A stretch of 52,732 bases of DNA from Chitinophagales bacterium. GTDB lineage: Bacteria; Bacteroidota; Bacteroidia; Chitinophagales; UBA2359. The notes below the pieces were generated by a model. The model did not search any database, was not told where the DNA came from, and saw only the letters and a program-made list of their open reading frames with translations. Positions 9,156 to 40,225 of the stretch are shown here, in pieces. The stretch lies in contig JAHDEE010000003.1 of NCBI GenBank assembly GCA_020629005.1, forward strand, positions 1-52,732, in the 5' to 3' direction. Each line of letters begins with the position of its first letter. The first letter of the stretch is position 1. A program made the translations under genes and the position numbers.

Positions 9156-10874
9156 TTAATGCTTTGCCTGCTTCGAATTCAGAACTTGCTCTAGTGCCTC
9201 AATTCTGCGTTCTATTTTCTTTCGTTCCTCATTCAGTCTTAGTACTTCATTACCTATGGAAATTGATTTGGCCTGCTCTGTCTCAAGTCTCTCGCTTTGG
9301 AGCTGGTGCACCGTCTGTAGTTCCTTTAGGGACTCCAGAAGTACAGGAAGAAGCTTCGTATAATCGACCATCTTGTATCCATCTTTTCTGGTCACCACTA
9401 TCTCTGGAAAGACTTGTTCAGTCTCTTGTGCGATCAAGCCCATTTGCGATTGAGCAGGAAACTTCATGTCCGGAAATTGCACAGCTCTGAATTTGTAGCT
9501 GACTGGTCGAAGCTGTAATAGTTTCTCTAGAGCATTTTGGATTGGCAAAATGTCTTTCTTATAGTTCCTGTCAGAAGAAAGCGGTATTCCATTCGAATAG
9601 ACATCTCGTGCATATATTGCACCATCCACTTCGAGTAATCCATCCGTTCCCAAAGTATCGCCGATTGAAACCTTGCCTTCTGCGTACGAGATCGTGTTAT
9701 CAGACAAGCTCCAGAATCCCAAGGCATCAGTTCCGGCGGGGCCTTGTATGCCCGTTTCGCCTTTTGGTCCCCTGCTTCCGTTAAAACCTTGATTACCTGC
9801 TGGGCCTTGTGCGCCTTGTGGTCCTGTTGCGCCTACTGGCCCATTGGATCCTGCAGGACCCTGTGCCCCTCTTGGTCCCATTGGTCCAATACAATCATTG
9901 GCATTCCATATTCCGTCATTGTTGATGTCTTCAGAATCCTGGGCATAAAAGTCTCCGTTGAGATCCCAACACTGCATTGCTGCTTCGCCACCCAGAATTG
10001 ACCTTGAGGCTCCTCTTGGCCCCGCAGCACCTGCTGGGCCGGCTGGGCCTGTAGGGCCAACATTTCCAGTAGGGCCACTCGTTCCAGCAATACCAGCAAT
10101 TCCTTGTGGACCTATTGCTCCTATTGGTCCCACACCTCCTTCTGAGCCAGATGGTCCCGGAATCTCGCAATCCAAGGCATTCCAAAATCCATCTTGATTA
10201 GTATCCTCCTCGTGATCTCGCTCGAAGTTTGTATTGAGGTCCCAGCATTGAGTTGCAAGTTCTCCTGCCAGAAGAGAAAGAGGGTCGCCTGCAGCTCCTG
10301 CAGGACCATCAGCTCCTGGAGCCCCGTCAGCTCCCTGAGGGCCAGCAGGACCATTGGGGCCGGCTTGGCCATTTACACCTTGTGGTCCATTGGGACCAGC
10401 CTGACCAGGAGGGCCAATTGGTCCTTCTGGTCCCTGTGGGCCTTCGGCTCCCAACTGCAACTCATCTATGTTTGCTGTGGCTGCGTAAAAGGCATATGGG
10501 ACAGACAGGAGTTGTGATGTTGCGAGTTCCTGGAAATTTGTTCCGGCATTTTCATCAATTGCGATCTGCAGATATTGAGCAGCATTTCCCCAGTCAATAT
10601 CTGAGAAAGATCCAAGTGCAGGACTTCCCTGGCCGATGTTGAGATCGAATAATCCAAAATTGTCTGTAATTGTAATATGCGTTTCCTGATAGACCGGATC
10701 TCCCTCCTCCGAACCTGAGAATATACTGACCTGTATGGAGATAGTTTCATTTGTCAAGACTATATCTTGATTGTCAAACGCCACGGCTTGATAGCTGAAG
10801 GCTTGTGGAACTTGTGCATCGACATAGCTGAGCCAAGCTAGCATTAGTAATAAAGTATAAGTTAGGTGTTTCAT
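9156..10874 (-). CDS. Collagen-like protein with C-terminal S74 chaperone domain (type 1 N-terminus)
   Basis: 572 residues. Signal peptide MKHLTYTLLLMLAWLSYVDAQ. The type 1 N-terminal domain begins [16 protein letters not shown] and ends [12 protein letters not shown]. Three collagen tracts are split by two cassettes (CWDLNTNFERDHEED and CWDLNGDFYAQDSED). Each is preceded by the LLAGE or ILGGEAA linker also found in the 2813-4525 protein, so these two are close paralogues. The S74 domain starts PLSSDRNYKKDI with the Ser-Lys spacing intact and GLIAQETEQVFPE downstream. The tail (LQSERLETEQAKSISIGNE onward) is a predicted coiled coil. It is the first gene of the array in transcription order, 15 bases before the frameshifted type 2 gene. 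Confidence 0.85.
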   Translation of the reverse strand: MKHLTYTLLLMLAWLSYVDAQVPQAFSYQAVAFDNQDIVLTNETISIQVSIFSGSEEGDPVYQETHITITDNFGLFDLNIGQGSPALGSFSDIDWGNAAQYLQIAIDENAGTNFQELATSQLLSVPYAFYAATANIDELQLGAEGPQGPEGPIGPPGQAGPNGPQGVNGQAGPNGPAGPQGADGAPGADGPAGAAGDPLSLLAGELATQCWDLNTNFERDHEEDTNQDGFWNALDCEIPGPSGSEGGVGPIGAIGPQGIAGIAGTSGPTGNVGPTGPAGPAGAAGPRGASRSILGGEAAMQCWDLNGDFYAQDSEDINNDGIWNANDCIGPMGPRGAQGPAGSNGPVGATGPQGAQGPAGNQGFNGSRGPKGETGIQGPAGTDALGFWSLSDNTISYAEGKVSIGDTLGTDGLLEVDGAIYARDVYSNGIPLSSDRNYKKDILPIQNALEKLLQLRPVSYKFRAVQFPDMKFPAQSQMGLIAQETEQVFPEIVVTRKDGYKMVDYTKLLPVLLESLKELQTVHQLQSERLETEQAKSISIGNEVLRLNEERKKIERRIEALEQVLNSKQAKH

Positions 10875-14000: not shown

Positions 14001-15413
14001 CAGCAGTGCGAGAGAGTCTGCTGCCAATGCGGCGCAAGCTGGTGCAGGAGGAAGCGGAGCAGTTTCGCAGAGGAGGTCCGTTGTCAAAGAATTGTAGAGG
14101 TTTAATCGTCCACCGGTGACACACTTATTTGTCAATTGAGGAAAAGTCTCAACGCCGTTCAAGATGGCTTCCTTAATTGCCTGGAACTCGAATTGTCCAC
14201 AGTGCGAGGCGATTAATGCTACTGCACCTGCTACATGTGGTGCCGCCATAGAAGTGCCACCATAAGCTTCGTAAGCAGCACCTGGGATAGTGCTCAAAAT
14301 GTTGCTGCCAGGTGCGAAGAGGTCAACTGAACTGTTCCCATAATTGCTAATTCCTCCCCATGCAAAAATAGAGGGGTTTTCCAAGGGATCAGAAGAGCCA
14401 ACACTGATGATGTTGGGCAGATCGAAGGCGGCTGGGTTGGTAGGTACAAGGTCTGCATCTTGACCATAGTTACCAGCAGAAGCTACAAGCATGTGATTTT
14501 GCGCCCCAGCTAGATCGATGGCATCCAGCAAAGCCTCACTGTAGAAGCCCTGGCCCCAGCTGCAATTGGAAATTTGAGCGCCCATTTCTACTGCATATTC
14601 CAATGATTTGACTAAGCCGTCTATCTGCACACCGATACAGAAGCCATTGTCCAGAAAGAAGGCTTTGATGGGCATGATTGTAACGTTGGGACTTATACCA
14701 ATCACCCCAATCGAATTGTTGCCGACCGCCCCAATAGTACCTGCCACATGCGTACCATGATAGCACTCGTCTGTCAAGTCGTTATTGTCGTCGACGAAGT
14801 TCCAGCCTCTGAAGTCATCTACATAGCCATTGTTGTCATTGTCGATTCCGTCCATGTCATCAGGATCAAAGCCCCATCCAGTGCCTGTTTGCACAATCAC
14901 AGTGCCGTCACCGTCTGCGTCCTCTCCAAGATTTTGCCATAGATTGGGTGCCAGGTCGGGATGGTTCAAATCTGCACCTGAGTCGATTACGGCGACTATA
15001 ATATTCCGATCTCCTTGCTGTAGATCCCATGCTGGCTCTGCGTCGATCACCTGCGGAGACCACATTTGACTGTAGAGGGCATCATTGGGTTGGCCATGTA
15101 ATTCAACCCTGCTGTTTTTTTCAACATATTCAACAATTGCTCTGTACGATTTTAAATGATCGACTACTGCTTCCAGACCCACAAGCTCTTGTGAATCTAT
15201 GAATACAGTATCAGGGATTTCCCAAACCTCTGCATTGATAAATCTTAAATCGTCAATGTGTTTGCAGCCGATTGTGCTTGCATCTATGCGATGTGCTTCT
15301 GGGGATTTGAATTTGATGATCAATTGGTTTTCAGCGATGTCCTGGCTGTACAATGAGCAGCAGAAACAAAGTATCGAAAGCATGGTGATTGTTTTGAATT
15401 TGTTTTGGATCAT
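11034..15413 (-). CDS. Giant secreted subtilisin-like protease with LRR, dockerin-like module and T9SS sorting domain
   Basis: 1459 residues with a signal peptide (about 1-24) and a short propeptide-like region. The S8 catalytic domain spans about 115-445, with Asp144 in VAVIDSGADLNHPDL, His219 in HGTHVAGT, the oxyanion Asn315 and Ser388 in GGTSMAAPHVAG. A block of plant-type leucine-rich repeats (LxGxIPxE pattern) runs to about 670. A Cys-rich stretch with two GDACDD/GDTCND units follows, then a dockerin-like calcium module (PGDFNGDGIVDVLDLL and VDANGSGVIDVEDLD). After that come two related beta domains with GW...YWVK motifs and a type A sorting domain (NPVRDALSFRIE to the C-terminus). It should act at the cell surface or outside. 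A near twin lies directly upstream. The substrate is unknown; the adjacent collagen-like proteins are candidates by position only. Confidence 0.9.
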   Translation of the reverse strand: MIQNKFKTITMLSILCFCCSLYSQDIAENQLIIKFKSPEAHRIDASTIGCKHIDDLRFINAEVWEIPDTVFIDSQELVGLEAVVDHLKSYRAIVEYVEKNSRVELHGQPNDALYSQMWSPQVIDAEPAWDLQQGDRNIIVAVIDSGADLNHPDLAPNLWQNLGEDADGDGTVIVQTGTGWGFDPDDMDGIDNDNNGYVDDFRGWNFVDDNNDLTDECYHGTHVAGTIGAVGNNSIGVIGISPNVTIMPIKAFFLDNGFCIGVQIDGLVKSLEYAVEMGAQISNCSWGQGFYSEALLDAIDLAGAQNHMLVASAGNYGQDADLVPTNPAAFDLPNIISVGSSDPLENPSIFAWGGISNYGNSSVDLFAPGSNILSTIPGAAYEAYGGTSMAAPHVAGAVALIASHCGQFEFQAIKEAILNGVETFPQLTNKCVTGGRLNLYNSLTTDLLCETAPLPPAPACAALAADSLALLAIHQATNGENWNHRWDLTAPVSSWYGVGLSSDGCHVICLDLDGYYNCTKSAAPDGNNLTGFLPPEIGNLSQLQTLSLRNNQQLTGALPPELGNLTNLQDLALININASGQIPEELFQLQNLKNLYLGENPLTGSIPAEIENCISLQKLFLQDCLLSGTIPEAIGYLPDLQWLYLQNNLLTGCYPESLCNIPYSGIPLSSNFNCTGNEGLPNGGSDQGLNDFCYYGVSCQQEDCPQLGNLGDACDDQDSNTMNDSVQPGCYCQGEIIQLDCDGGNIGDTCNDGNNNTANDVIQSDCSCAGTTIADCPPITFDLGPDQGILCGESIPLSVGDEDFTNIVWSYEGLYLSADTSDLIAHVPGNYSVVVTDGCGTVVEDHISLIELEDCVWPGDFNGDGIVDVLDLLAWGAAAPKTGPERNNANNGWIGQSAPSWGAQSPNGVDVKHVDANGSGVIDVEDLDVFALNFGQTHDSAVQLLAGPVDGIMGPLTDWSRSSVSDGQLSIDIVMMQTQESITGISGEFDLGELEVSAVNFEYQDSWFGLQEEVESYLHLDPYNNKIHLGLTRKDGVAVIGEGIVGQLNLKEPPNDPWLDSPQDFVLEIQNPRIMNQEGSLGIINAGVSLHSVQQTEAIALQAGWNQVVFTVIPSDTEMSSVFSSLKPENLQYVISYESGPQIYSPDLPDEDCTLKEIKKGQGYWVKVSHDDVLYLNGDKIPESFRTTLADGWTLLGFHSSFSYSPEVYFEQLLEDDLSFRVVDFLDPNAHFDSSDALLNATLEELKPKHNYWVKLEPEEPIPTSSQNLPSNRFDYLLGHTDLAPGSEIEMYCNGELIGTLLVDQEHQFAPIPLVADDQHTTEVVEGLQPGDLVYFEFNGQLSSSVLLYQGAFLVHEIELLFSNTSVDSTISRNTIEILTNPVRDALSFRIELEHPKPDLNIKCFDQLGKLVFDSKISKDEQLGKVLNFDLQNFRQGPYYYRISGEQIEKTGSFFYTGK

Positions 15414-15759: not shown

Positions 15760-18700
15760 TTATCTAATCACATGAAAGGAATCAGTCCAGCTCTCTCTGT
15801 CGCTGGATAGTCTGTAAAAGTATTTGCCGGGTCCCAGGGTCAATGTATTGATCTGGCATCCAGATGTGCCTTCGTATGCCTCTAAATTGGAAAGGTCTAA
15901 GACTAACTTTCCCCGAATGTCGTAGATCTCAAGCTGCAAAGACTCTCCTAAGTATGATTCTGGAAGCCTTATAAAAAAGTCGTCGGAACAGGGGTTTGGA
16001 TAGGAGTGGAGTTTGAATTCCTTATGTTTCGGTGTTGATGTATTTGTAAAGTCCAGATCTACAACATGTACCACGTAGAATCCATCGAAACTAATACCTC
16101 CATTGATGCTCTCTCCATTATAATGGAAGATCACCTGATCTCCCGCTGCTAGACCCTCTTGCACTGCTTCGGTGCTTGCGTCATCGCCATAAACAGCAGT
16201 GCTTTCCAATATTCCGTTTTCGAGCACTACGATATTACCCAAATGATTGCCTGATTCATCTCTGATACCGATTGACTGTCCCGCAGCGAGATTTGTGTAG
16301 CCTCTCACAAAGTCAAATTTGTTCGTCGTGTTTGTGTTAGGATCGGAAAGGCCACCCTGGGCGCTATCGACCTTGATCCAATAGCCCGAACCTGGTTGCA
16401 ATTCAAGCAGCGTATTGGTTTCGAGCAAGTCAGGTTCAAAGTGCAAAAAGCCTTGATCGTAGCCTGTAATTTTTCTCAGGCTACCATTTTGCAATAAGTC
16501 TTCAAAGAATATCTCCGGAGTGTACGAATGCGTTGGTGAGTAAGCAGCGAGATTCCATCCAAGATTCAGAGTGTTGACATTGATTGAGTCAAGCCTTTGT
16601 CCGTCAACATACCACAAATCATCTTGCGCAACACGCACCCAATATGCCTTTCCCTGTTCAACCAGATTCATTGTGTTTGCCTCAGGCTCACTCATTGCGT
16701 CAAATAGCAGCGCCTCATTTTCGTAAGCCACTACTTGCAAAAGATTATCTGGTTGTAGACTAGCAAATACCGAGAGAATTGAGGGATCGTGAATTGCTGT
16801 CATGACAGAAACCAGATTCCATCCCTCCCGGAGTAAAATTTTGTCACCATAAATATTTGTTGACGCAAGTTCAAAGCCGCCAGGCAGCTGATTAATCGAG
16901 CCATCGTCCTCCATAATATGTGCATCTCTTACATGAAAGTATAGCTCCGTGCCTAATTCTGACCAGGAACCAACATTATCTTCGATCAAGACCAGGGTTC
17001 CCAAACCTCCAGAACCCGAAAGTCCTTGACCGTCGATCCTGGTGATCCCTATATCTATTTGTTGCTTTGTGGAGTCGAAGCGAGAGAATGTTCTGACTTC
17101 TGACTCCTGCTGACCAAACCATTCGCTATCATATATAAACGTTGCATTCCTCACTCCCAATTCGCTTAGATCGATTTGCCAGGCCAAGCCATGTAGACCG
17201 TCCACTGTGGTTTGTATGTCAATATCAATTTCCAAATAACCGTCCGTCAGGGATGAAGCATACCAATCCGTTTCCGACTTGAGAGAAGCTTCTGTAGTTG
17301 TTGGGTAAATGGTAATCGAAGCTCCATGCTCATTGTTGTAATTTGATTCGATGGCAAGCAGATCCAGGTCATCCACCAATCCATCTCCATTGGCATCAGA
17401 GTGCTTTACATTTGTACCATCAGGGCTGGTAGATTGCCAGGCTTCAGCATTATATCCTTGCCAGACAATTCCCTGCTGCGCTCTTGCGAGATCGGCTGTT
17501 CCATAATTGTAACCAAAAGTTAGCAGGTCCAAAGTATTTACAATCGCATCGGCATTGGTATCTCCCGGCCAAACACAGTCTTCTGCTTGCACCAGGTCAA
17601 CCTGCGAAACATCAATGTTGCCGCAAATGTCTTCGACCACAACTATATAGGATCCAGGATAAAAGACTTCGACGCTAGTTTGATCACTCGCAAAGATGTC
17701 TCCTTCATAATCCCAAATAATAAGAGCGGCATTTTCGACCTCAATAGAAAGTTGAATGGTGTCTTCGCATGCGAGGAATAGATTGGGGCCCAGATCAATA
17801 TTGAGTTCAGGGCAATCAGCAGGAATGCCAACACAAGTGCAATCTGCCTGTACTTCATCATGGATCGTGTCGGGATTCTCATCTGTGCATGCATCCCCAA
17901 TATTGCCTAATGATGGACAATCATCTCCAGACTCGCAATCGTTCGCTGTTCCATTGCAAAAAGCGGCAAAACCGTCCGTAGAGCCTGACTGCGGTAAGTC
18001 AGGATTGTTTTCGCAATTGAAGTTTCCCAATCCAAGGTCAAGGTCTAACCAGCAAAGGCTTGTGGGGTAGCAGCCTTCGAGATAGTTGTCGCTCAGGTCC
18101 AGACTGTTAAGGCTAAGCATGTTCCCAAAGTTTGCGGGAATGGTGCCCGTGAGACTGTTATTGCTACAGCTGATCGTTTGGAGATTATGTAGGTTGCCGA
18201 GCTCGGAAGGAAGCTGCCCCATCAGACCATTGTCATCCAGAAAGAGATAGACAAGGTTGCTCAACTGCCCTAGTTCAGCCGGGATTAAATTGTTAAGAAT
18301 GTTTGCATTCAGGTTTAAGTACTCAAGATTTTCAAGCAAACCTAGTTGAGCAGGAATTTGCCCACCAAAATTATTATCATACAGATAAATTTCTTTTAAC
18401 TGGATCATGTCGCCAATGCTGGGTGGCAAGACGCCGCCTAACGAATTGCTTGCCAGATTGAGTGACTCCAGTTTTACGAGCTTGCCAATTGAATCAGGGA
18501 GTGGTCCGCTTAAGTCATTGAAGGAGAGATTTAAGTAGCGCAACTCAATGAGGTCTCCTATTTCTTCAGGCACAAAGCCGACTAAATTATTGCCTGACAG
18601 GCTACCTATTTGGCAATCGGGATTGCCATCAAGGTCCAGACAAACCACGGAACATCCTTCAGTATCCAATGTGACTCCGTACCAAGTGCTCACCGGTTGG

Positions 18701-20172
18701 TCCAGGGCCCAGGTATTGGTCCAGTTCGCACCATCGGTTGCTTCATAGAGGGCAAGTAATGCCAGAGAATCTCTTTGTAGACATGGAGGTTGAAACGTGA
18801 TACACTCAGTAGCTATAGCACTGATGGCGGCTCCTACATTGAGTCGACCACCAGACTTGCAGTGTCCGTCAAAGGAATTCAGGGTATCAACCGTGGCCAT
18901 TAGCAGATTTTTGATGTCTACTGCTGTATAGTCCGGACATTGAGAGCGTATCAAAGCTGCAGCAGCGGTTACATGAGGAGCGGCCATAGAAGTGCCCTGC
19001 TTCACGTCATATGTGCCGCCTTTCCAGCAGCTCAGGACGGCAGATCCAGGTGCAGCCAGGTCTACGCTTGTCTGCCCAAGATTTGTGCCCATACCTGCAC
19101 CAAATTGCGAAGGCTGATCCTGCTGATTACTTGCTGCCACACTGATGATATGATCTAAATCATAACAAGCCGGAAAAGTCTCCTCCTCATCTGTGTCTTT
19201 GTTCTCATTTCCCGCTGAAGTCACAAAGCAATGGTCCGAAAGGGCAAAGTGATTGATGACCTCTTCAAGAGATTCGTAATGGTAATCAGAACCCCAGCTG
19301 AGGTTGCTAATACGGGCTCCGATAGAATCGGCATACGCTATTGCTTCTACAATTTGACTCATGTTCGCCCCTACACAATCGTCAACCAGTGGGTGGTATT
19401 CAAATGCTTTGATCGGCAACAGTTTTATATTGGGACACACACCTGCGACGCCAAGATCGTTATCAGCAAGTGCGCCAACTATGCCAGCGATATGTGTTCC
19501 GTGACCACAAAGATCCTCCGGACGATTGTCTCGATTGAAAAAGTCATAGCCCGCAAAATCGTCAATATATCCATTGCCATCATCATCAATTCCATTGACA
19601 TCTCCCGGGTCAAAGATCCACCCGGTACCTGTATATTCCCAAATCGTTCCATCACCATCAGCATCTTCACCAAGGTTTTGATAGATGTTGTCATGAAGGT
19701 CAGGATGATTCCAGTCGATGCCTGAATCCAGAATCGCTATGATGATCTCATCATTTCCCTGCTGTACATCCCAGGCAATTGGCATGGAAATCTGTTGGTG
19801 ACCCCAAAGCTCGCTATACAAAGGGTCGTTCGGTTCCCAGTGTAATTCCGGGCGACCATTTGGCTCAGCAAAACGCACGATGCCAGAATAGCTATTCAAG
19901 TGGTTCGCAATCTCTTCAGTTCCAACAAATGTGTTACCTTCTACCACCAGGGTATCAGGTACACACCAGACTTCCAGCTGCAAATCTTCGAATCGCTTGA
20001 CAAGGCCACAACCAACAGAAGAGGCACTCATTGTGTACAAACCGGGATTTACGAAGCTGATCAGAATCTCGTTTGGTTCCAATTGGTAAGGCGTCCCTTG
20101 AATAGGAGTGGAGATAATGAAAGTGAAAAGTAGCAGAAGTAATGACAGATATCTGATTGGTGATCGCTTCAT
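15760..20172 (-). CDS. Giant secreted subtilisin-like protease, paralogue of 11034-15413
   Basis: 1470 residues with the same architecture as its downstream twin. A signal peptide (about 1-26) and a propeptide-like region precede the S8 domain, with Asp149 in IAILDSGIDWNHPDL, His224 in HGTHIAG, Asn322 and Ser395 in QGTSMAAPHVT. About eight leucine-rich repeats follow, with better preserved plant-type LxGxIPxxLG units than in the twin. Then come a Cys-rich GDACTDENPDT unit, a dockerin-like module (PGDTNADAIVNTLDLL, SDANGDGLVDDLDLL), paired GW...YWVR beta domains and a type A sorting domain (SYPNPCSDDFFIRLPE to FHVIR). Start is the Met at 20172, which opens a good signal peptide. The two genes are a tandem duplication that has diverged. 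Exported by Sec plus T9SS; substrate unknown. Confidence 0.9.
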   Translation of the reverse strand: MKRSPIRYLSLLLLLFTFIISTPIQGTPYQLEPNEILISFVNPGLYTMSASSVGCGLVKRFEDLQLEVWCVPDTLVVEGNTFVGTEEIANHLNSYSGIVRFAEPNGRPELHWEPNDPLYSELWGHQQISMPIAWDVQQGNDEIIIAILDSGIDWNHPDLHDNIYQNLGEDADGDGTIWEYTGTGWIFDPGDVNGIDDDGNGYIDDFAGYDFFNRDNRPEDLCGHGTHIAGIVGALADNDLGVAGVCPNIKLLPIKAFEYHPLVDDCVGANMSQIVEAIAYADSIGARISNLSWGSDYHYESLEEVINHFALSDHCFVTSAGNENKDTDEEETFPACYDLDHIISVAASNQQDQPSQFGAGMGTNLGQTSVDLAAPGSAVLSCWKGGTYDVKQGTSMAAPHVTAAAALIRSQCPDYTAVDIKNLLMATVDTLNSFDGHCKSGGRLNVGAAISAIATECITFQPPCLQRDSLALLALYEATDGANWTNTWALDQPVSTWYGVTLDTEGCSVVCLDLDGNPDCQIGSLSGNNLVGFVPEEIGDLIELRYLNLSFNDLSGPLPDSIGKLVKLESLNLASNSLGGVLPPSIGDMIQLKEIYLYDNNFGGQIPAQLGLLENLEYLNLNANILNNLIPAELGQLSNLVYLFLDDNGLMGQLPSELGNLHNLQTISCSNNSLTGTIPANFGNMLSLNSLDLSDNYLEGCYPTSLCWLDLDLGLGNFNCENNPDLPQSGSTDGFAAFCNGTANDCESGDDCPSLGNIGDACTDENPDTIHDEVQADCTCVGIPADCPELNIDLGPNLFLACEDTIQLSIEVENAALIIWDYEGDIFASDQTSVEVFYPGSYIVVVEDICGNIDVSQVDLVQAEDCVWPGDTNADAIVNTLDLLTFGYNYGTADLARAQQGIVWQGYNAEAWQSTSPDGTNVKHSDANGDGLVDDLDLLAIESNYNNEHGASITIYPTTTEASLKSETDWYASSLTDGYLEIDIDIQTTVDGLHGLAWQIDLSELGVRNATFIYDSEWFGQQESEVRTFSRFDSTKQQIDIGITRIDGQGLSGSGGLGTLVLIEDNVGSWSELGTELYFHVRDAHIMEDDGSINQLPGGFELASTNIYGDKILLREGWNLVSVMTAIHDPSILSVFASLQPDNLLQVVAYENEALLFDAMSEPEANTMNLVEQGKAYWVRVAQDDLWYVDGQRLDSINVNTLNLGWNLAAYSPTHSYTPEIFFEDLLQNGSLRKITGYDQGFLHFEPDLLETNTLLELQPGSGYWIKVDSAQGGLSDPNTNTTNKFDFVRGYTNLAAGQSIGIRDESGNHLGNIVVLENGILESTAVYGDDASTEAVQEGLAAGDQVIFHYNGESINGGISFDGFYVVHVVDLDFTNTSTPKHKEFKLHSYPNPCSDDFFIRLPESYLGESLQLEIYDIRGKLVLDLSNLEAYEGTSGCQINTLTLGPGKYFYRLSSDRESWTDSFHVIR

Positions 20173-23066: not shown

Positions 23067-25259
23067 TTAGTCGTTTTGCAAGTGAAGTTTTAGGTCTTCA
23101 ATTGCTTTTCTGTTTTGCTCAATCTCCGTTTTGAGACTAGTGTTTAGAGAAACGTTTTCTTGCTCGGCCTTGAGAAGTTTTTCGTTGAGCTCTTTTATAG
23201 CTTCCACTAACACCGGAACTAGTTTGGCGTATTCGACTGCTTTGTAGCCATCTGCCTTTGTAAGGACCAGTTCGGGCAGAATTTGCTCAAGTTCTTGTGC
23301 AAGGAATCCGACTTGTTCGGCTTCAGAGAATTTCCTTTCTGGAAACTTTTTGGTATCAAATTTATAGGTGACCCCTCGGATGGCCATCACTATCTCCAAT
23401 GCATTGCTTAAGGATTCGATATCTTTTTTGTAGCGGGCATCTGATGTCAACGCAACACCATTTGAGCATACGCTTCCGCTGACGTCCAGAGCGCATTGCG
23501 GATTGTTGTTCCCAATGCCTACATCTCCAAGGTAGTAAATTTGGTTGGCACCTGTATCCATCCAAGGGGTGATGCCTTGTGGGCCGAGCGGCCCAGCCGG
23601 ACCCTGACAATCTAATACATTTGTTTGGCCGTCTCCGTTCACATCTTCGGAAGGGTCTGATGCCCCATTCTCGTTGAGGTCCCAGCAGTTCAATCCAATG
23701 GGTCCTGCGGGTCCGAATGGTCCTTGTGGTCCTGCTGGTCCCGATTGTCCAGCCGGTCCAGCCGGTCCTGCGGGTCCCGCTGGTCCTGGTGGTCCTTCCG
23801 GCCCCGCAGGGCCAGCTGGTCCTGCTGGACCGGCACTTCCATCTTCTCCCGAAGGGCCTGCCAAGCCTGCTGCTCCCTGGCAATCGTTTACGTCCCAGAC
23901 ATTATCTCCGTTTACATCTTCAAAATCGTCTTGAGTACCATCCTGATTGAGATCCCAGCAAAAAAGAGAAACTTCAAAACTGCCTTGTGGCTGGCAGTCT
24001 TCCGCACTCCAAATTCCATTGTTATTTTGATCCTCGGACGGATCGTTTACGCCATCACCATTAGTATCCCAGCAGTTGATTCCAACACCTGGAGGTCCTT
24101 GTGGTCCGGCAGGTCCAGCCGCCCCTTGTGGTCCGACGCTTCCAGCCGGCCCTTGAGCCCCCATGTTTCCAGCCGGCCCTTGAGGCCCCATGTTTCCAGC
24201 CGGCCCTTGAGGCCCCATACTACCAGGCAATCCAGGAGGTCCCTGTGGACCTTCGGGGCCCGCAGGTCCGGCAGGGCCAATGGCTCCATCTTGTCCGTCT
24301 GTGCCGGGTGGACCTTGTATCCCAACTTCACCCTGGGCGCCAAGCAGTCCTTGTGGACCCTGGCAATCGAGTACATTTATATCTCCGTCCCCATTGCTGT
24401 CTTCTTCGGGGTCATTTATGCCATTTTGATTGGTATCCCAACAGTGTAGTCCGTTTCCTGTTCCTGTGCCAGGGGGACCCTGTGGTCCTGGTTCTCCTTG
24501 TGGTCCCTGCGGACCCATTTCTCCCGGAGGTCCCTGGATTCCCTGCGGTCCGTCATTTCCTTGCGGTCCTTGTTCACCTATTTCACCTGGGGGGCCTGGC
24601 ACGCCTGCAGGCCCTGGAAGTCCCTGGCAATCTGCCGTAGTAAAAAGCGAGTCTCCGTTGATGTCTTCTTCGGGATCATTCAGCCCGTTTTCGTTGGTAT
24701 CCCAGCAGTGTGTTCCATTCTCACCACCAGATGGTCCTGGTGGTCCTTCAGGGCCTTCTGGTCCAGGCAAACCGTCTGCTCCTGCAGGACCCACTGGGCC
24801 GATTGGACCGACAGCTCCGGGTGGGCCTTGTGGTCCGGCTGGGCCGGCAATTCCACCGCCAGCGCTTTTCGAATAGAGTGCGTAGGGAACGCTCAGCAAC
24901 TCTGCAGTGCCGAGGATTTGGAAGTCAGAACCGCCGTTTGGGTCCAATTCAATTTGTATATGATGGCTACTGTTTTCCCAGGCCAAACTTGAGAAGTCGC
25001 CTTGCACTACAGTTCCTCGACCAATCTGTAGGTTGTATAATCCGATAAAATTCGTATTGACAAGGTGATCTTCGATATAGACGATTTCACCGGCGATTCC
25101 GTCAATGAGGATATTGACCCTTACGGCTATTTCCGTGTTACTAATAGGGCTGCCATCGATTTGGTTTGCAACAGCCTGATAGCTAAATGCCTCCGGGGCC
25201 TGCGCGTTTGTTAGTATGCTGTAAAATAGCAGCAAAAACAAAAAGATCAGTTTCTTCAT
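23067..25259 (-). CDS. Largest collagen-like protein with C-terminal S74 chaperone domain (five cassettes)
   Basis: 730 residues. Signal peptide [20 protein letters not shown]. The type 1 N-terminal domain begins [16 protein letters not shown] and ends [13 protein letters not shown]. Six collagen tracts are separated by five CWD...DC cassettes, which here keep the best calcium-loop-like spacing (for example [15 protein letters not shown] then NGD). One tract contains a recent 27-bp tandem repeat. The S74 domain starts [12 protein letters not shown] with Ser-Asp-x-x-x-Lys, then [13 protein letters not shown]. The C-terminal 60 residues are a predicted coiled coil ([19 protein letters not shown]). 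It stands apart from the main array, beyond the two proteases and the 20629 gene. Element D follows its stop codon. Confidence 0.88.
24141..24220 (-). repeat. Three 27-bp tandem repeats inside a collagen tract
   Basis: Three nearly identical 27-base units starting TCCAGCCGGCCCTTGAG at 24141, 24168 and 24195 encode repeated GPAGNMGPQ-type triplets. Near identity at synonymous sites shows recent expansion of the Gly-X-Y tract; 27 bases is three triplets, so the frame is kept. Confidence 0.85.
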
Positions 25260-31615: not shown

Positions 31616-32635
31616 ATGAATATGATGAGAAAAGCGCTGCTTCGAATAGCCTTATTAATACTGCCATTGAGCTTCTGTATTCATCCCTTATTGAGTCAGG
31701 ACATCCACTTTAGCCAATACGTAGCCTCTCCTCTAACGCTCAATCCTGCTTCAGGTGGTGATTATGAAGGCGCTTGGCGTGCTATGGCAATCTATAGAAG
31801 TCAATGGGCAGCAATATCCACTCCCTTTGAATCAATTGCAATTGGTTACGAAAAGAAATTTGAAAAATTCAATGGGGGTTTAGTGTTTCTCAACGATCGT
31901 ACGGGCGATGTTAGGCTCAATTCAAACAAGCTGTATGCCAACCTTGGATTGGTCAGAAGCCTTGCTGGTTTGGAGTTGCGATTGGGAGGGCAGTTGGGAC
32001 TAGCTCACAAGTATGTTGATGTCAACAGCCTCAGTTATCCCAATCAGTTCAATTACGGATCTGGACAATTTGACCCCTCTCTTCCAAATGGCGAAAACAA
32101 TATCAAGAATTCGATTCTTTATCCTGATTTGAATCTTGGCATCTTCCTGCGGAGAAATTCTGAAAAGCTTAGCCCATTTCTTGGTCTAAGCGTTTTTCAC
32201 GTAACACATCCTAACGAGTCCTTTTCAGGTTATACGGAGCGGTTGCCGATGAGAACCAATGTGAATCTAGGAATCAATTGGCGCTTAAGTCCACAGATTG
32301 CTTTCGTTCCAGAAGTACTTTATAGTCATCATACCAAGGCTCATGAATTACTTGCCGGTGCACATGCCTATTACTACCTGCTACCGAATGCTCTACAGGC
32401 CAAGTCACTGTTCGTAGGAGGGGAGGTCAGGACTGGCTTGGGACGTAATACAGATGCATTGATTGTAATTGCCGGGATGGAAATCAAGAAGATAAGGGCT
32501 GGCATTAGCTATGATTCCAATGTTTCGCAGCTTTCGGATGCCACCAATAGTCAAGGAGCCTTTGAGCTTTCTTTGATTTATACAGGCATTATTTCGGTGC
32601 CAGAACAAATACAAATCCCTTGTGATCGTTACTGA
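31616..32635 (+). CDS. PorP/SprF family type IX secretion system membrane protein
   Basis: 339 residues with an N-terminal signal region ending near LLSQDIHFSQY. The opening DIHFSQYVASPLTLNPASGG is the family hallmark of PorP/SprF proteins (IHxSQf..sPLxlNPAxtG). They fold as outer-membrane beta barrels of about 14 strands. Later segments (WAAISTPFESIAIGYEKKF, GGQLGLAHKYV) fit the family. In Flavobacterium, SprF is needed to export the giant adhesin SprB. Other SprF-like genes sit next to large cargo with type B sorting domains. That is the arrangement here, with a PorE-like gene two bases downstream and a 1454-residue type B protein at 35861. It probably serves that cargo. Confidence 0.9.
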   Translation: MNMMRKALLRIALLILPLSFCIHPLLSQDIHFSQYVASPLTLNPASGGDYEGAWRAMAIYRSQWAAISTPFESIAIGYEKKFEKFNGGLVFLNDRTGDVRLNSNKLYANLGLVRSLAGLELRLGGQLGLAHKYVDVNSLSYPNQFNYGSGQFDPSLPNGENNIKNSILYPDLNLGIFLRRNSEKLSPFLGLSVFHVTHPNESFSGYTERLPMRTNVNLGINWRLSPQIAFVPEVLYSHHTKAHELLAGAHAYYYLLPNALQAKSLFVGGEVRTGLGRNTDALIVIAGMEIKKIRAGISYDSNVSQLSDATNSQGAFELSLIYTGIISVPEQIQIPCDRY

Positions 32636-32637: not shown

Positions 32638-34752
32638 ATGCCCCCAATAACAGACTATATGCTTGCGAATCGATTGATCATTTGCTTTTTCTTATTCCTG
32701 TTGACTAGCCTGTCAGCAAATGGGCAGTTGGACAGGTTGAACAAACTTGGTGCAGGTGCCTTGAGTGATTACGGCGACTCTGCGCTCAGTATGGGAGATG
32801 GGTGGTCCGCAGTGGACTACTTTTCTGCACTGACAAAGAAAAAGCCGAAAGATGCCAGCGCCCGGTTTCGTCTAGGCTTGGCTTATAAAATGTCTCGGCA
32901 GTACGAAAAGGCGGAGGCTGCTTTTGTGAAAGCCTATGAGTTGGATTCAGAGAAACAGGTAAAGGCCTTGTACGAACAGGGGATCATGCAGCAAATGCAG
33001 GGGCAGTATGAGCAAGCCGCAGAAACCTTATTGAATTTTCGCAAAAAGAATCGCGGAGCTAAGGATTCCAAACTGATGTCTAAGAAAGTCCGGCTTGCCG
33101 TGGAAGGCTGCAATATGGCACGACGCCTAATTGACACGATTCCCCTCAATGTGGAAATAAAACATCTGCCGAAAAGTGTAAATTCTCTGCACATAGATTT
33201 TTCACCGGCAATTAGCCCAGATGGCACTTTGATCTATGGTTCGCTAAAAGATGAAGGTTACGATAAAGCTTATAAACTTCGGGAGCTGGATTCTGCGCCT
33301 ACCAGGAAACTCTATGAAGCAAAACTTGAAAACGGCAAGTGGGTAGATCAAGGAGAATTGAAGGGACCTTTCAATCAAGCTGCAATGAATTCCGGAAACG
33401 GGAAATTCAGTCCGGATGGCGAACGTTTCTTCTTCAGCCGATGCGCTAGAAATAAGAAAAACAAGAACATTTGCGCGATTTATTTGAGTAGACTGGAAGA
33501 TGGGAAGTGGAGCACGCCAGAAAAACTCCCAGAAGCGATTAATCATCCAGACTATAGCTCCACAATGCCCTGCTTTGGTTTCGAAACTTTTCGTAACAGG
33601 GAACTGCTGTACTTTGTTTCTGACAGACCTGAAGGAAAAGGCGGCATGGATATCTGGTATTCTCTATACGACAGTAAGAAAGGTGTTTATAGAGCAGCTG
33701 CAAATTGCGGTTCAAGAATAAACACTTCGGAAGATGAGCTTTCGCCCTATTTTGATGTCGGAGCAAGAACGCTGTACTTCAGTTCAAATGGCAAGCCAGG
33801 GTTAGGTGGTCTGGATGTATTTAAAGCTGTAGGTGAAATGAGGAAATGGGAGCCAGCAGAAAATGTAGGATACCCCATAAATACGGAGAAAGACGAGCTG
33901 TACTACATTCTCGCTGAGGATGGTGAATCCGGCTTCTTCACCAGTAACCGGGCGGAAGCACGTACTTTTAAACACAAGTTTTGTTGTGATGATATATTTG
34001 CGTTTAACAATTTGCCGGAACCGATCCCCGAAAAGAAGGATTCTGTAATCACGGAGCTGCCTCAAGAAATTCAGCCAAAACTTGTAGGAAGGGTGATCGA
34101 AACAGATCCAGCGGATCCGGTTGAGAAGATTGTGGGAAATGCGCTCATTACACTTTATGAGCTTGAAAATGGCAAGCGAAAGTTTGTTCGTTCTGTCTAT
34201 AGCAAGAAGGATGGGAAGTACGATTTCAAATTGATACCCGGTCTGGACTATGAGATCACAGTGAGCAAGGACGGATACTTTTCGAAAACCCTCCCTGTTG
34301 AGAAGTCGAGCTCAGGAGAGCCCACCATTAAGAAGGACCTGAAACTCGAGCAACTGGCAAAGGGACCAATAATTATCAAGAATATTTATTACGAATTTGA
34401 TAAGGCAGATTTGACTCCGGAATCGAAGGCCGCGATTGACAAATACCTTTACCCGGTGCTTTCTGACAATCCCTCAATTATCGTTGAAATCAGTTCTCAT
34501 ACTGACAGCAAGGGCAATGACTCCTACAATCGACGTTTATCGCAGCAGCGGGCTGAATCAGTAGTAAGATATCTGAAAGAAAAGGGGCTCAAAGCTGACC
34601 GACTACAAGCCAAGGGATACGGAGAATCTGTTCCAATTGCGGCCAATAAAAACGAAGATGGTAGTGACAATCCTGAAGGACGGCAAAAGAATCGTCGAAC
34701 GGAGTTTAGAGTTGTTGGCCAGATTGATCAGGATGTACAATACAAGGAGTAA
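32638..34752 (+). CDS. PorE-like protein: TPR, PD40 propeller, carboxypeptidase-regulatory domain, OmpA peptidoglycan-binding domain
   Basis: 704 residues from the first ATG, two bases after the PorP/SprF stop. The Met at 32659 gives a tidier signal peptide (MLANRLIICFFLFLLTSLSANGQ) and is a real alternative. Domain order is two or three TPRs (about 45-140, FRLGLAYKMSRQYEKAEAAF), then a WD40/PD40 beta-propeller (about 180-450, ISPDGTLIYGSLKDEG, GKFSPDGERFFFSRC, ELSPYFDVGARTLYFSSNG). A carboxypeptidase-regulatory-like beta domain follows (about 485-565), then an OmpA_C domain (about 575-695) with the peptidoglycan-binding pattern TDSKGNDSYNRRLSQQRA. This is the architecture of PorE of Porphyromonas gingivalis, which links the T9SS to peptidoglycan. 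It most likely works with the adjacent PorP/SprF in cargo export. Confidence 0.88.
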   Translation: MPPITDYMLANRLIICFFLFLLTSLSANGQLDRLNKLGAGALSDYGDSALSMGDGWSAVDYFSALTKKKPKDASARFRLGLAYKMSRQYEKAEAAFVKAYELDSEKQVKALYEQGIMQQMQGQYEQAAETLLNFRKKNRGAKDSKLMSKKVRLAVEGCNMARRLIDTIPLNVEIKHLPKSVNSLHIDFSPAISPDGTLIYGSLKDEGYDKAYKLRELDSAPTRKLYEAKLENGKWVDQGELKGPFNQAAMNSGNGKFSPDGERFFFSRCARNKKNKNICAIYLSRLEDGKWSTPEKLPEAINHPDYSSTMPCFGFETFRNRELLYFVSDRPEGKGGMDIWYSLYDSKKGVYRAAANCGSRINTSEDELSPYFDVGARTLYFSSNGKPGLGGLDVFKAVGEMRKWEPAENVGYPINTEKDELYYILAEDGESGFFTSNRAEARTFKHKFCCDDIFAFNNLPEPIPEKKDSVITELPQEIQPKLVGRVIETDPADPVEKIVGNALITLYELENGKRKFVRSVYSKKDGKYDFKLIPGLDYEITVSKDGYFSKTLPVEKSSSGEPTIKKDLKLEQLAKGPIIIKNIYYEFDKADLTPESKAAIDKYLYPVLSDNPSIIVEISSHTDSKGNDSYNRRLSQQRAESVVRYLKEKGLKADRLQAKGYGESVPIAANKNEDGSDNPEGRQKNRRTEFRVVGQIDQDVQYKE

Positions 34753-34788: not shown

Positions 34789-35613
34789 CTACCAAAGGTA
34801 AGTTCTTCCTAGTAGAAACTGCTCCGCCATTCGTTGATATTGGCCGCGGCTGAAGCGGCATTGGCAAGGGCCATAAGCACTCATGATATTGTCCATCGGG
34901 GGCACAAAGAGGTCGCCGTTAGGATCGACAAGTGTCTCGGTCAAATTACAAGTGAAAGGATCGTACTCAATAGTTGGGAAATAGGGATCCGCATCGGTAT
35001 CGCAGATCAGGTCTCCAGCAGTTTCGCAATTAGATAGATCTACAAACTCTAAGCCCATACTGGTTTCATTGGTGTGAAACAATCCGAGGTAATGGCCGAT
35101 TTTGTGTTTCATTACACCTGTTCCAGCCAAGACCATCACATCAGGACCGGTTCCTGGCATATAGGTGAAGCCTGGTGCTCTTTGCCCGCCAATATGCACT
35201 GAGTCCACGAAATACATATTGAGTGTGTTGAGCTGATAATTTAATGCTACCATCTCATCTTCTTCCTCTTCCCTAACCAACCAGGCGAAATTGTGATTCT
35301 CCATGGTGCGAAAGTCGCAAACCTCGAAGGACAGCTTGATCGTATCCATAGTTTGGTTGAGGGACTCCACAGCTGCCAAAATTTGATCCTGGGAGATTAC
35401 GAGACTTCCGTCTTGACGTTGCACGGTGTGTACTGTGATGGATATCTTTCGGAATAGTCTTGGTACTGGTGCTGATCGACTTGTGCTTAAATGTTCCAAT
35501 GCATACTCTTTTGCCTCCTTGGTTACATGTGTACCGCAATGCATATTCTGGGCATGCAAAGGTAGGATGCAAAGTAAGGAGATAATCAAAGTAGCAAAAG
35601 ATAAAATTTTCAT
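34789..35613 (-). CDS. Pappalysin-like zinc metalloprotease homologue with catalytic Glu replaced by Lys
   Basis: 274 residues from the Met at 35613, which opens a signal peptide (MKILSFATLIISLLCILPLHAQ). The fold markers of the pappalysin (M43) family are present: CGTHV at the N-terminus, the extended zinc site HKIGHYLGLFH at 170-180, paired downstream cysteines (NCETAGDLICDT), and the Met-turn region DNIMSAYGPCQCRFSRGQYQRM. The site should read HExxHxxGxxH, but residue 171 is Lys (AAA; codon at 35101-35103) where Glu (GAA) is expected. The zinc ligands H170, H174 and H180 remain, so zinc may bind without catalysis. There is no T9SS tail; it may be periplasmic. It lies convergent to the PorE-like gene. 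Probably a pseudoenzyme, unless the base is a sequencing error. Confidence 0.85.
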   Translation of the reverse strand: MKILSFATLIISLLCILPLHAQNMHCGTHVTKEAKEYALEHLSTSRSAPVPRLFRKISITVHTVQRQDGSLVISQDQILAAVESLNQTMDTIKLSFEVCDFRTMENHNFAWLVREEEEDEMVALNYQLNTLNMYFVDSVHIGGQRAPGFTYMPGTGPDVMVLAGTGVMKHKIGHYLGLFHTNETSMGLEFVDLSNCETAGDLICDTDADPYFPTIEYDPFTCNLTETLVDPNGDLFVPPMDNIMSAYGPCQCRFSRGQYQRMAEQFLLGRTYLW

Positions 35614-35774
35614 CAGATGATTTCTTCTAAAGTAGCAAGCAGATGGGCTTTTTTCAAATTGATGCAGCATGTGACAGAAAAAGGATCAGACTAAGTCTCA
35701 AGCAAGACGTTCCCCAATGCTGAAGCCAAGGTAAAACTAATATATTGGCCAAGCATAAAAAAATGTAATTGGCT

Positions 35775-35860: not shown

Positions 35861-38800
35861 ATGAACAAGCAATTCTTTGTTTTATTGGCTGCTTCTCTTT
35901 TGTGCCTCTTTTGCCCGAAGATTCAGGCGCAGATCATTACCGCCTCGCAGGAAGAGGGATGTGCACCTCTGGTTGAAGTACAATTTGATTCTCCTGCAGA
36001 CAACACTGAAGTGTTTTGGGATTTTGGGGATGGAACTAGTTCCAATTTGGTCAGCCCAGTGCACACTTTCGTAAATGCGGGAAGTTATACTGTAATTTAT
36101 ACCGCTAGTGATAATGGCAGCCCTGTTGAAGAGGAACTTTTGATTGAGGTATATGGTAATCCGGAGGTTGCTATCGAAGCTTCTTTGACGGGTGGTTGTG
36201 TTGGAGATGCCGTTTTGTTTCAAGACAATTCGGTTGTCGGGGGAGGAGTAGCAATTGTAGAGCGTGAATGGGCTTTCGGAGATGGTGGAGTTGATGTAGG
36301 AAACAATGCAAATCCGGAGCATGTGTTTGAGATTACAGGAAGCTTTGACGTTACACTGAAAGTGACGGATGCTAATGGCTGTGAGACAACAACAAGTTTT
36401 CCGGATTTGGTGACGATTTCAGCCGCTCCAAATGTGGTTTATACAACTAATCCTGCAACGGCCTTTGCGTGCGAGCCTCCGCTGGTGGTGAGCTTTTCCG
36501 CCGCAGGTACAACAAGTAACTCCCCATTGGGATCCGAATTGACCTATGAGTGGGACTTTGGCGATGGAAGTACTGCCGACATAGCTACACCTTCTGCACA
36601 TACCTATTCGGAATTTGGGACTTATTATACCACGCTAACTGTAACAGATTTGAACGGTTGTTCAATGATTGTTGAGGATACAGTTGGAATTGCGGAGCCC
36701 TTTGCTTCTTTTGCAGTTCCCGACACAGTTTGTGCTATAGTGGAATTCGAAAACCTCTCCAGCCCTGGCATTGCGCAATGGAATTATGGGGATGGTTCCC
36801 AGGGTACGAGCAATATTCATGAGTATCAGGAGCCAGGCAATTACGACGTATCCTTGCTGATAACTGCAGGTCCTTGTCAAAACGACACAACGATCAGCAT
36901 ATATGTTGACACTCTTGAACCTGAGTATACGGCTAGTCCGACATATAGTTGCGATGTGCCGGTAGAGATACAATATGAAGATAATACACCCGGGGCTGTT
37001 GACTGGACTTGGTTTCTCAGTACCGGAGATACACTGACGGGTCAGAATCCAGTGCTAAGCTTTGATCCAGGAGACGATCCTTACCTATTGTACAAGGAGT
37101 CATTTTATGTGGTGGATAGTCTTGTGGTACTCAGCGGAAGTGGCTGCATTGACTATCGGGTCGATAGCCTGGTGATGTTGTGGCCAATTACTGCCCGAAC
37201 GGTTCCGGATATTGGACAGGGCTGTGCTCCGCTCACAGTATTTTTTGCTGATTCCAGCTATTCCAATGAACCAATTGTGAGTTGGGAGTGGGACTTTGAT
37301 GATGGGACTACCATGGTAGGAGATTCGGACGGGGTGAGCCATACTTTTACTGAGCCGGGAGACTATAATGTGACACTTACCATCAGCAACGATATTGGCT
37401 GTGAAGATGTTTCTTATATCGTTGACATACATGTGGGAGAGGCACCTGTTCCTGAATTCAACCTTGATCCTGAGGGCACAATATGCTGGGACGATACCCT
37501 GAATCTCATTGATGATACTCCAGCCGTTCAGATGGCTGAGAATTGGCATTTTGATACGGATGGTGGGCATAGTTGGCATTGTCCGAACAACTCCAGCCCG
37601 CAATGGGGGCCGTGGAATACCACGGGCGTTCAAGATATTACACTTGAAGCTGAATACAACGGTTGCATAGGTGAGACTACTGTAGAAGATGTAATTGAGG
37701 TGGAAGGCCCTATAGGGAGAATCATCTATAGCTGCGACTGCGAAAATCCTCTTGAAATTAACTTCAGTGCTATAATACAACAGGCTGATACGCTTAGCTG
37801 GGATTTTGGGGACGGAACGATTTTAGCCGACACGACCCTGATCGATCCTGTGCATGTTTATGAACCAGGTGATTACTGGGTAAAGCTTATTTCCAGGAGC
37901 TCTGAAACGGAATGCCGTCCGTTTCGCGATAGCATTTACTTACAAATCAGGGATATTCAAGCTGCCTGGACTGCCGATACATTGGTTTGCGTCGGCACTC
38001 CAGTCTTGTTCGATGCCACGGAATCCACTGGAGTAGATGAGTTTTGTAAAACTGGCTATCAATGGTACTTTGATGATGGTTTCGCTCCGCAAACAACCGA
38101 TCAAACAACTTACACACACTTTTTCGGAGCACCTGGTCCTTATGATGTTCGTCTTGTTACACGAGATGTCAATTTTTGTGCAGATACCTTAGTCCAGAGA
38201 ATCTGGGTATATGATATACGTGCACAGTTTGAAGCTGACCCTCAGTTCAGTTGCCTGCCGATTGACGTACAGTTCACTGATTTCTCTACAGCGGATACCA
38301 CTATTGTCTCCTGGGAATGGGACTTTGGTGATGGCAATACTTCAACGGAACAGAATCCATCACATGTTTATAATTCTGAGCCAATTGACTCTTTCTTTGT
38401 GGCCACATTGACTGTTAAGGACGTGTTGAATTGCCCTTCCTCCAGCTCTGTCATTATCGTGCCTTCCATTCCGGATGCTGCATTTACCAGTGAGGCCATT
38501 CCTGCGATTTGCGAGAATGAAACGCTAAGTTTTCAGGCAATTGAAGAAAACGAATCTTATTTATGGGATTTTGGTGATGGGAGCACAAGCAGTATTCAGA
38601 ACCCATCTCACCAATATACTGAGGCAGGAAATTATACGGTAAGTTTAACTGTAATCGATAGCGTGGGTTGTTCCGAGACCAGTACCTTAAACAATTTTGT
38701 GAGCGTACAGGGCTATCCAGAAGCGGCGTTTAGCTCTTCTGCGGATACGCTTGAGCAATTGTGTTATCCACTGCTCATCAACTTTAGCGATGAGTCAGAA

Positions 38801-40225
38801 GGAGAGCCGGTAAGCACCTGGAATTGGGATCTTGGAAATGGCAATCCTGTTGTGTCCGATCCAACTGTAGGGACGATCTATCAGAATCCGGGAGAGGTGG
38901 AGGTTACCCTTATTGCTGAAAGTGCAAATGGATGCACTGATACGACAAGTCAGTTTTATACCATTCAAGGCCCTACAGCGGATATCACTTCATTCCCTGC
39001 AATCATCTGCCGCGGTGATGAAGTCACCTTTGATATAGTTGATTCTATGGATGTTTGGACCTACTCCTGGGACTTTGGTGATGGGACAGATACCAGCAAT
39101 GTTTCTCCGATTACGCATACGTATGATATAAATCCGCCATCCGGACAAACCACAGTATCGTTGGTATACTACTCGCCTGATTCACTTTGTCAGGCAACGA
39201 CAACGCAATCGGTCTTTTTTAGGGATTTGCTAGCGGACTTTAATCGAAACGGAGAATCTGTTGTGGGGGATACCATGCACTGTCAGGGGCCTGCGGATAC
39301 ATTCACAAATCTTTCCGTAAATGGGGATACCTTCTTCTGGGATTTTGGCGATGGTACTACTTACGAAGGATTTCAGCCTCCTGCCCATTTGTATGCTGAA
39401 CCTGGCATTTATGAGATTACCCTTTTTGTGGATGATGAAGAAACAGGCTGTTCTGACGAAGTCACCAAAGTGATGCACATCACCGACGGTGCACCTTTGA
39501 TCGCATTGGGGGATTCCGGCTGTGAGGGAGATACCTTGCAACTTCAGGCTGTGGGAGGAATTAATTATACCTGGGCGCCTGCAGAAACGCTCAGTGATGC
39601 AAATATTTCCAACCCGATTGCGTTTCCGGAGGAAACGACCGTCTATACTGTGACGACAGTGGATGAGTACGGCTGTAGAGATACTGCACTGGTAGTAGCG
39701 GGGATTTATACTCAGCCTTTCGACTTTGTCGTAGATACCTTTGTGGTACTGGGCGATTCGATTGCCTTAGGCACGCCTGGAGATCCTGCTTTTTCGCAGT
39801 CCTGGTCGCCTGATACCTGGCTAAGTTGTCCAGAGTGTCCTTTTACCTATGCTGCTCCGGAAGAAGACATCACATACGTTTCCCGACTGACAGATCCTGG
39901 TGATTGCTATACATCCGAGCATCGTTACAACATCGAAGTTCGGCCGGTTTCTTCGATTGATGTACCTACTGCATTTACACCAAATGGTGATGGAATCAAT
40001 GATTTCATCACCGTTGAGGGATGGGGTATTATTCGAGTGATTGAATTTAATATCTACAATCGCTACGGTGAGTTGGTATTCGAAGGGCGAGAGGACAATT
40101 ATGCCTGGGACGGCTACTACAAAGATGAGCTACAGAACAACGAGACCTATGTATATACGGCTATAGTGCAAACTTTTTCTGGTGGCTCTCTAACTAAGAA
40201 CGGTACTTTCCATTTGTTGAGATAG
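35861..40225 (+). CDS. Giant multi-PKD adhesin-like protein with T9SS type B (gliding-associated) C-terminal domain
   Basis: 1454 residues. Signal peptide MNKQFFVLLAASLLCLFCPKIQAQ. The body is a chain of at least twelve PKD-like beta-sandwich repeats, seen from the recurring WDFGDG or variant motif followed by H(T/V)Y...G.Y.V.L. Examples are WDFGDGTSS, WAFGDGGVD, WDFGDGSTA, WDFDDGTTM, WDFGDGNTS, WDFGDGTDT and WDFGDGTTY. Many repeats carry paired Cys. The last 90 residues are a type B sorting domain, starting VPTAFTPNGDGINDFITVEG and including FNIYNRYGELVFEG and YAWDGYY, ending NGTFHLLR. Such proteins are exported by the T9SS with the help of a PorP/SprF partner and act as surface adhesins or motility adhesins. 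The PorP/SprF and PorE-like genes lie just upstream on the same strand, separated only by the convergent metalloprotease gene. Confidence 0.92.
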   Translation: MNKQFFVLLAASLLCLFCPKIQAQIITASQEEGCAPLVEVQFDSPADNTEVFWDFGDGTSSNLVSPVHTFVNAGSYTVIYTASDNGSPVEEELLIEVYGNPEVAIEASLTGGCVGDAVLFQDNSVVGGGVAIVEREWAFGDGGVDVGNNANPEHVFEITGSFDVTLKVTDANGCETTTSFPDLVTISAAPNVVYTTNPATAFACEPPLVVSFSAAGTTSNSPLGSELTYEWDFGDGSTADIATPSAHTYSEFGTYYTTLTVTDLNGCSMIVEDTVGIAEPFASFAVPDTVCAIVEFENLSSPGIAQWNYGDGSQGTSNIHEYQEPGNYDVSLLITAGPCQNDTTISIYVDTLEPEYTASPTYSCDVPVEIQYEDNTPGAVDWTWFLSTGDTLTGQNPVLSFDPGDDPYLLYKESFYVVDSLVVLSGSGCIDYRVDSLVMLWPITARTVPDIGQGCAPLTVFFADSSYSNEPIVSWEWDFDDGTTMVGDSDGVSHTFTEPGDYNVTLTISNDIGCEDVSYIVDIHVGEAPVPEFNLDPEGTICWDDTLNLIDDTPAVQMAENWHFDTDGGHSWHCPNNSSPQWGPWNTTGVQDITLEAEYNGCIGETTVEDVIEVEGPIGRIIYSCDCENPLEINFSAIIQQADTLSWDFGDGTILADTTLIDPVHVYEPGDYWVKLISRSSETECRPFRDSIYLQIRDIQAAWTADTLVCVGTPVLFDATESTGVDEFCKTGYQWYFDDGFAPQTTDQTTYTHFFGAPGPYDVRLVTRDVNFCADTLVQRIWVYDIRAQFEADPQFSCLPIDVQFTDFSTADTTIVSWEWDFGDGNTSTEQNPSHVYNSEPIDSFFVATLTVKDVLNCPSSSSVIIVPSIPDAAFTSEAIPAICENETLSFQAIEENESYLWDFGDGSTSSIQNPSHQYTEAGNYTVSLTVIDSVGCSETSTLNNFVSVQGYPEAAFSSSADTLEQLCYPLLINFSDESEGEPVSTWNWDLGNGNPVVSDPTVGTIYQNPGEVEVTLIAESANGCTDTTSQFYTIQGPTADITSFPAIICRGDEVTFDIVDSMDVWTYSWDFGDGTDTSNVSPITHTYDINPPSGQTTVSLVYYSPDSLCQATTTQSVFFRDLLADFNRNGESVVGDTMHCQGPADTFTNLSVNGDTFFWDFGDGTTYEGFQPPAHLYAEPGIYEITLFVDDEETGCSDEVTKVMHITDGAPLIALGDSGCEGDTLQLQAVGGINYTWAPAETLSDANISNPIAFPEETTVYTVTTVDEYGCRDTALVVAGIYTQPFDFVVDTFVVLGDSIALGTPGDPAFSQSWSPDTWLSCPECPFTYAAPEEDITYVSRLTDPGDCYTSEHRYNIEVRPVSSIDVPTAFTPNGDGINDFITVEGWGIIRVIEFNIYNRYGELVFEGREDNYAWDGYYKDELQNNETYVYTAIVQTFSGGSLTKNGTFHLLR

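Follow-up and report, generated by a model that had tools for sequence, protein, structure and literature searches.

In this study, we show that a short M43 (pappalysin)-fold protein, encoded in a 52,732-nucleotide stretch of a Chitinophagales genome that was analyzed as a whole (the window), has lost two catalytic residues in its own lineage while keeping its zinc His and its predicted fold, that such losses recur among its relatives, and that the genes of this family are linked to those of giant PKD-repeat adhesins. These observations are most simply explained if the protein is a partner of the PKD adhesin in the periplasm, a peptidase by origin, for which cutting has become dispensable. On balance, we think it probable, although by no means assured, that the window protein is a dedicated partner of its neighboring PKD type-B adhesin, descended from a peptidase, whose catalysis was lost here and which was kept for a binding, chaperone, or scaffold role. 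The gene and its diagnostic sites are as follows:

34789 to 35613, minus strand: short M43 (pappalysin)-fold protein of 274 aa, with a signal peptide and without a T9SS tail
35536 to 35538, minus strand: Cys26 of the CGT prosegment, candidate cysteine switch of a former zymogen
35074 to 35106, minus strand: zinc motif HKIGHYLGLFH, with H170 (35104 to 35106), H174 (35092 to 35094), and H180 (35074 to 35076) kept
35101 to 35103, minus strand: Lys171 (AAA) in place of the catalytic Glu, GAA in the sister species
34882 to 34884, minus strand: Met244 of the Met-turn, kept
34876 to 34878, minus strand: Ala246 (GCT) at Met+2, the position of the switch Tyr in intact members and in the sister species (TAT)

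The open frame extends from 34789 to 35670 on the minus strand (293 aa), with the second ATG (35613) as the likely start, which yields a plausible signal peptide, a product of 274 aa, and the numbering used for Lys171. The original prediction had read a Lys in place of the catalytic Glu with the full set of three zinc His and the Met of the Met-turn retained, and both readings are borne out; it had located the motif at 35095 to 35110, which is the right site but covers only part of it, and the deciding base, given as 35101, is in fact plus-strand position 35103, where AAA and GAA differ. Compared with an active M43 peptidase, the window protein has the three zinc His and the Met-turn Met and lacks both the catalytic Glu and the Tyr at Met+2, the latter loss being additional to what had been claimed before. 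According to the available text of PMC11674741, this Tyr is the "tyrosine switch" of pappalysins, and replacing the catalytic Glu of cytophagalysin by Ala abolishes activity. A cysteine switch is described for mirolysin in the available text of PMC8259862; a CGT or CAT prosegment is present in 11 of 89 short members of the family.

Family membership is indicated by a match to Pfam PF05572 (24.8 to 25.2 bits against a cut-off of 23), which 34 of 41 short members also match at an E value of 0.01. The AlphaFold2 (AF2) model of the window protein is confident (pLDDT 90.2, pTM 0.83), and its best matches among solved structures are ulilysin (Z 19.3), PAPP-A (Z 19.3), and mirolysin (Z 18.5), with 203 residues superposed on ulilysin at an rmsd of 2.7. 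No T9SS tail family was found among the Pfam matches of the 41 short members at an E value of 0.01, nor was a T9SS tail found in an NCBIfam search of the window protein, and the short forms are therefore predicted to be periplasmic. Four of the 89 short members, two of them from an unlinked lineage, have a lipobox-like pattern.

The same-genus orthologue (G001), whose gene order is identical, keeps both the Glu (GAA) and the Tyr (TAT), which places the loss of both residues on the window lineage and means that the Lys is not fixed in the genus. Orthologues had been proposed as a check on fixation, and they give a divided answer: the nearest one has Glu, whereas farther relatives in the same neighborhood have Q, K, H, L, M, V, G, or A, so that Lys171 is not an isolated error. 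A one-off error of sequencing or assembly, or a gene in decay, might be suspected from the difference between this nearest orthologue and the window (GAA versus AAA) in a genus sampled by two species only; we regard it as extremely improbable, given that like losses occur in many lineages, that the frame is open, that the fold model is confident, and that pN is 0.199 against a pS of 0.822 between window and sister. Moreover, a single miscalled base cannot explain both changes, since going from the sister's TAT to GCT requires at least two substitutions. The additional loss of the switch Tyr was the reason for rejecting a base-call artefact, and general decay was set aside on pN/pS and on the private changes, of which the window copy has four and the sister three, with no excess. 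As pS is saturated (0.82), we give no dN/dS for this pair, and we claim no rate shift because the window/sister branch lengths vary by tree (0.33/0.21, 0.40/0.08, and 0.24/0.33).

The surrounding genes support the T9SS adhesin neighborhood that had been proposed:

31616 to 32635, plus strand: PorP/SprF-family outer-membrane protein (PF11751, 134.7 bits; TIGR03519, 161.6 bits)
32638 to 34752, plus strand: PorE-like TPR/PD40/OmpA peptidoglycan-anchor protein (NF052230 PorE, 319.9 bits, below the cut-off of 600)
35861 to 40225, plus strand: PKD-repeat giant of 1,454 aa, the adhesin partner, with a type-B T9SS sorting domain

The PKD giant matches PF18911 in 12 stretches, CHU_C at 51.5 bits, and TIGR04131 at 54.6 bits, and a type-B tail is present in all seven further PKD partners tested. 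Genes for PorP-like, PorE-like, and type-B C-terminal domain proteins stand side by side in the window and its close relatives: the G001 orthologue is flanked by the same genes as the window M43-like gene, and G013 and G039 have the full set (PorP-like, PorE-like, M43-like, and PKD), as does G027 in a different order. Elsewhere, the window encodes three collagen-type-repeat proteins ending in a Peptidase_S74 (endosialidase chaperone) domain (5616 to 7331, 9156 to 10874, and 23067 to 25259, minus strand) and two similar, adjacent giant subtilases that contain leucine-rich repeats and match T9SS tails (11034 to 15413 and 15760 to 20172); no tRNA was found when the window was scanned for them.

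To place the window gene in a broader perspective, we combined a profile search across 396 genomes of the order, with regions fetched around short matches, a scan of a named genome collection (best 80 of 562 loci), and, in the reverse direction, a search of 198 genomes with the PKD protein as query; 11 of 131 ORFs were dropped as duplicates before counting. Most short M43-like ORFs (81 of 93) have a PKD homologue within 1.5 kb, with a median gap of 113 bp. The two genes are on opposite strands in 61 of these 81 linked loci and hence often do not form one operon. PorP or PorE-like matches were found near only 32 of the 81, in a blastp search with the window proteins that divergent ones can escape, which indicates that the constant partner is the PKD protein and not the whole trio. 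The named records are mostly Chitinophagales and Saprospiraceae, some being labeled Flavobacteriales, Cytophagales, or Bacteroidales, labels that may be wrong for assembled genomes. Among the 12 unlinked short forms, L083 to L085 represent another lineage, five are near a contig end, L100 has a PKD ORF 1,534 bp away, and no PKD was found in the fetched stretch for L058, L062, and L095. Long M43s are not beside a PKD giant in the neighborhood tables, the nearest being L049, a second, long M43 some kilobases away, and L151, with a weak PKD match in the same stretch. The reverse search gave 19 places scoring at least 440 bits. A short M43 adjoins 14 of these, another four either run into a contig end or hold the second piece of a gene that is split, and in the last, in G055, no M43 was found in about 1 kb of flank. 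PKD homologues scoring under 380 bits have M43-like neighbors in family f4 only.

The 81 linked members comprise 48 with an intact H-E-H-H set, 24 that have lost the Glu, 5 that keep the Glu but have lost a zinc His, and 4, all of family f4, in which the zinc motif is absent altogether. The intact majority indicates that catalysis still matters in most lineages. The linked pair is also present, with the motif intact, at locus L107 of the culturable relative Flavilitoribacter nigricans. The Glu is missing in 28 of the 81 linked members compared with 1 of about 55 unlinked M43s (26 unlinked loci read by eye plus 31 long forms minus 2 overlaps, with further overlaps possible), a difference with a Fisher p of 9.5e-7 that ignores relatedness. 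At this position, the 89 aligned short members have E in 64, Q in 9, H in 6, K and L in 3 each, and G, V, A, and M in 1 each; E is found in all 31 long members, and the 26 unlinked loci have 25 Glu and 1 Gln. The Gln is that of L025 (G020:C97), the only unlinked long M43 of the set with this residue for the catalytic Glu (HQIGH).

In a careful 50-row tree, built from a set without ORFs over 420 aa and from an alignment without the motif columns, the Glu state changes at least 8 times and the switch Tyr 7 times, and in a quick 95-row tree the Glu state changes at least 11 times and the switch Tyr 11 times; such minimum-change counts alone do not separate loss from gain, but all outgroup rows carry Glu. 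The window protein and its Glu-bearing sister are joined at 100/99 support in the 50-row tree. In a 42-row set, motif and Tyr are both intact in 21 members and both lost in 16, 4 members have lost a motif residue only, and 1 has lost the Tyr only, a joint loss that is strong by count (16 of 42) but not significant for independent supported pairs (median p 0.125). Retention of the three zinc His in the window protein, and likewise in nine other short members with Q, L, or M for Glu, means that zinc may still bind, and the protein could in principle still be a peptidase that works by another mechanism, with the Lys or another group as base. We consider this very improbable: the Glu-to-Ala result for cytophagalysin (available text of PMC11674741) speaks against it, the switch Tyr is gone as well, and other lineages have lost the zinc His altogether.

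Members without a catalytic site nevertheless remain under constraint, in line with the original prediction of a fold maintained after loss of the catalytic residue. Variation among 20 degenerate members falls on the catalytic positions 171, 180, and 246, whereas each of the 20 retains G177, L178, T181, D201, T206, D209, D230, N242, M244, and Q258. For pairs with both members dead, dN/dS is 0.094 (L070/L075) and 0.125 (L061/L148), compared with 0.078 for an intact pair. The model of the metal-free L174 has a pLDDT of 81.4, with PAPP-A, ulilysin, and mirolysin as best matches (Z about 17), and is based on an alignment rich in intact relatives that may pull it toward the pappalysin fold. L174 to L177 (G042, G022, G054, and G066; 272 to 275 aa) are without zinc His, Glu, and switch Tyr, score 127 to 130 bits against the family profile, and adjoin a more distant PKD giant. 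A different pattern is seen at L062:7487-8272, which reads RELGRFFGLLH: both His of HExxH are changed to Arg, and the Glu and Tyr are kept.

The M43 and PKD trees resemble each other, with a correlation between tree distances of 0.83 over 69 pairs (as high in 0 of 2,000 permutations) that is confounded by the shared organism phylogeny, and with 28 of 66 splits in common. For this comparison, 69 of the 81 linked pairs were used, PKD ORFs under 3,300 bases or without an open frame being left out, a filter that also removed L078, the dead copy of G138. Linkage without interaction, reflecting shared regulation or genes that merely travel together, would fit the opposite orientation of most pairs, and vertical descent alone predicts co-divergence; we nonetheless rate it as rather unlikely, since the linkage persists across many families despite variable flanking genes, and since, in two cases that we tested, paralogous modules of the same genome diverge together as units. 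In these, the two modules of G042 and the two side-by-side modules of L074, nearest relatives match in both trees; L077 is an exception, its PKD grouping elsewhere. L074 (G251) holds two adjacent M43-like/PKD modules, at 4472 to 5326 and 12211 to 13056, both dead, and L077 is a third dead copy elsewhere in that genome. Dead copies could alternatively act as regulators or decoys that pair with an active M43, or bind and hold its substrate, and in this way control it. This is suggested by G138 and G042, each with one intact and one dead adhesin-linked copy (L174 being the dead copy of G042), and by the other M43 genes with intact motifs in the window genome. We judge it unlikely, because each copy adjoins its own PKD gene, the G042 pairs have matching nearest relatives, and the three linked copies of G251 are all dead, with no intact linked one in this set.

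We therefore return to the dedicated adhesin partner as our preferred reading. The protein would be Sec-exported and probably periplasmic, and its ancestor would have been a working zinc peptidase, most likely acting on the adhesin or its anchor in maturation or release. Having Lys in place of the general base Glu and Ala in place of the switch Tyr, the window protein could no longer use the known metzincin mechanism; it would have kept zinc His, calcium-loop residues, and fold, and would serve the PorP/PorE-like/adhesin module as a subunit for binding, chaperoning, or scaffolding. That fold and place beside the adhesin are kept while cutting residues are repeatedly lost suggests that it is binding, not cutting, that was retained. 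Of the two candidate roles first put forward, "binding protein" fits the evidence better than "inhibitor." More tentatively, and with a chance that we place a little short of even, the family may represent a fourth, undescribed subunit of the type-B adhesin export and anchoring module, a pappalysin-fold PKD-adhesin binder in which an enzyme was converted to a binding protein at least 8 to 11 times, in the extreme with the entire zinc site gone, so that active, catalysis-dead, and metal-free forms make up a natural series. Descriptions of dead enzymes usually concern single cases; in this instance, a whole partner-tied family has died repeatedly, and its dead members adjoin living relatives, sometimes in the same genome, which offers a test bed for the change from enzyme to binding protein and a candidate for a missing component in the production and retention of large type-B surface adhesins by Bacteroidota.

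With the pappalysin family M43 (ulilysin, mirolysin, cytophagalysin, and PAPP-A), the window protein shares the fold, the zinc His, the Met-turn Met, the Ca-loop Asp/Thr (D201 and T206), and the CGT prosegment; unlike these peptidases, it is adhesin linked and has no catalytic Glu, switch Tyr, or secretion tail. A literature search, for which subscription papers were mostly out of reach, found no description of the short M43 subfamily, including in the available text of PMC11266112, PMC12635249, PMC9143113, and PMC12618676. The first of these, a review, describes in its available text dead metallopeptidases, metzincins among them, that are kept for protein binding; a term search of that text found no M43 or pappalysin case, and the likeness lies in a dead metallopeptidase presumed to be kept for binding. 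In Porphyromonas gingivalis, PorE, PorP, and a type-B protein (PG1035) form one complex (available text of PMC9143113), and Flavobacterium johnsoniae has five porE-like/type-B/sprF-like operons, thought to provide a static anchor (available text of PMC9143113 and PMC12618676). The window cluster has the same trio of gene kinds, to which, unlike the systems as named in the available text of these two sources, it adds an M43-like fourth member.
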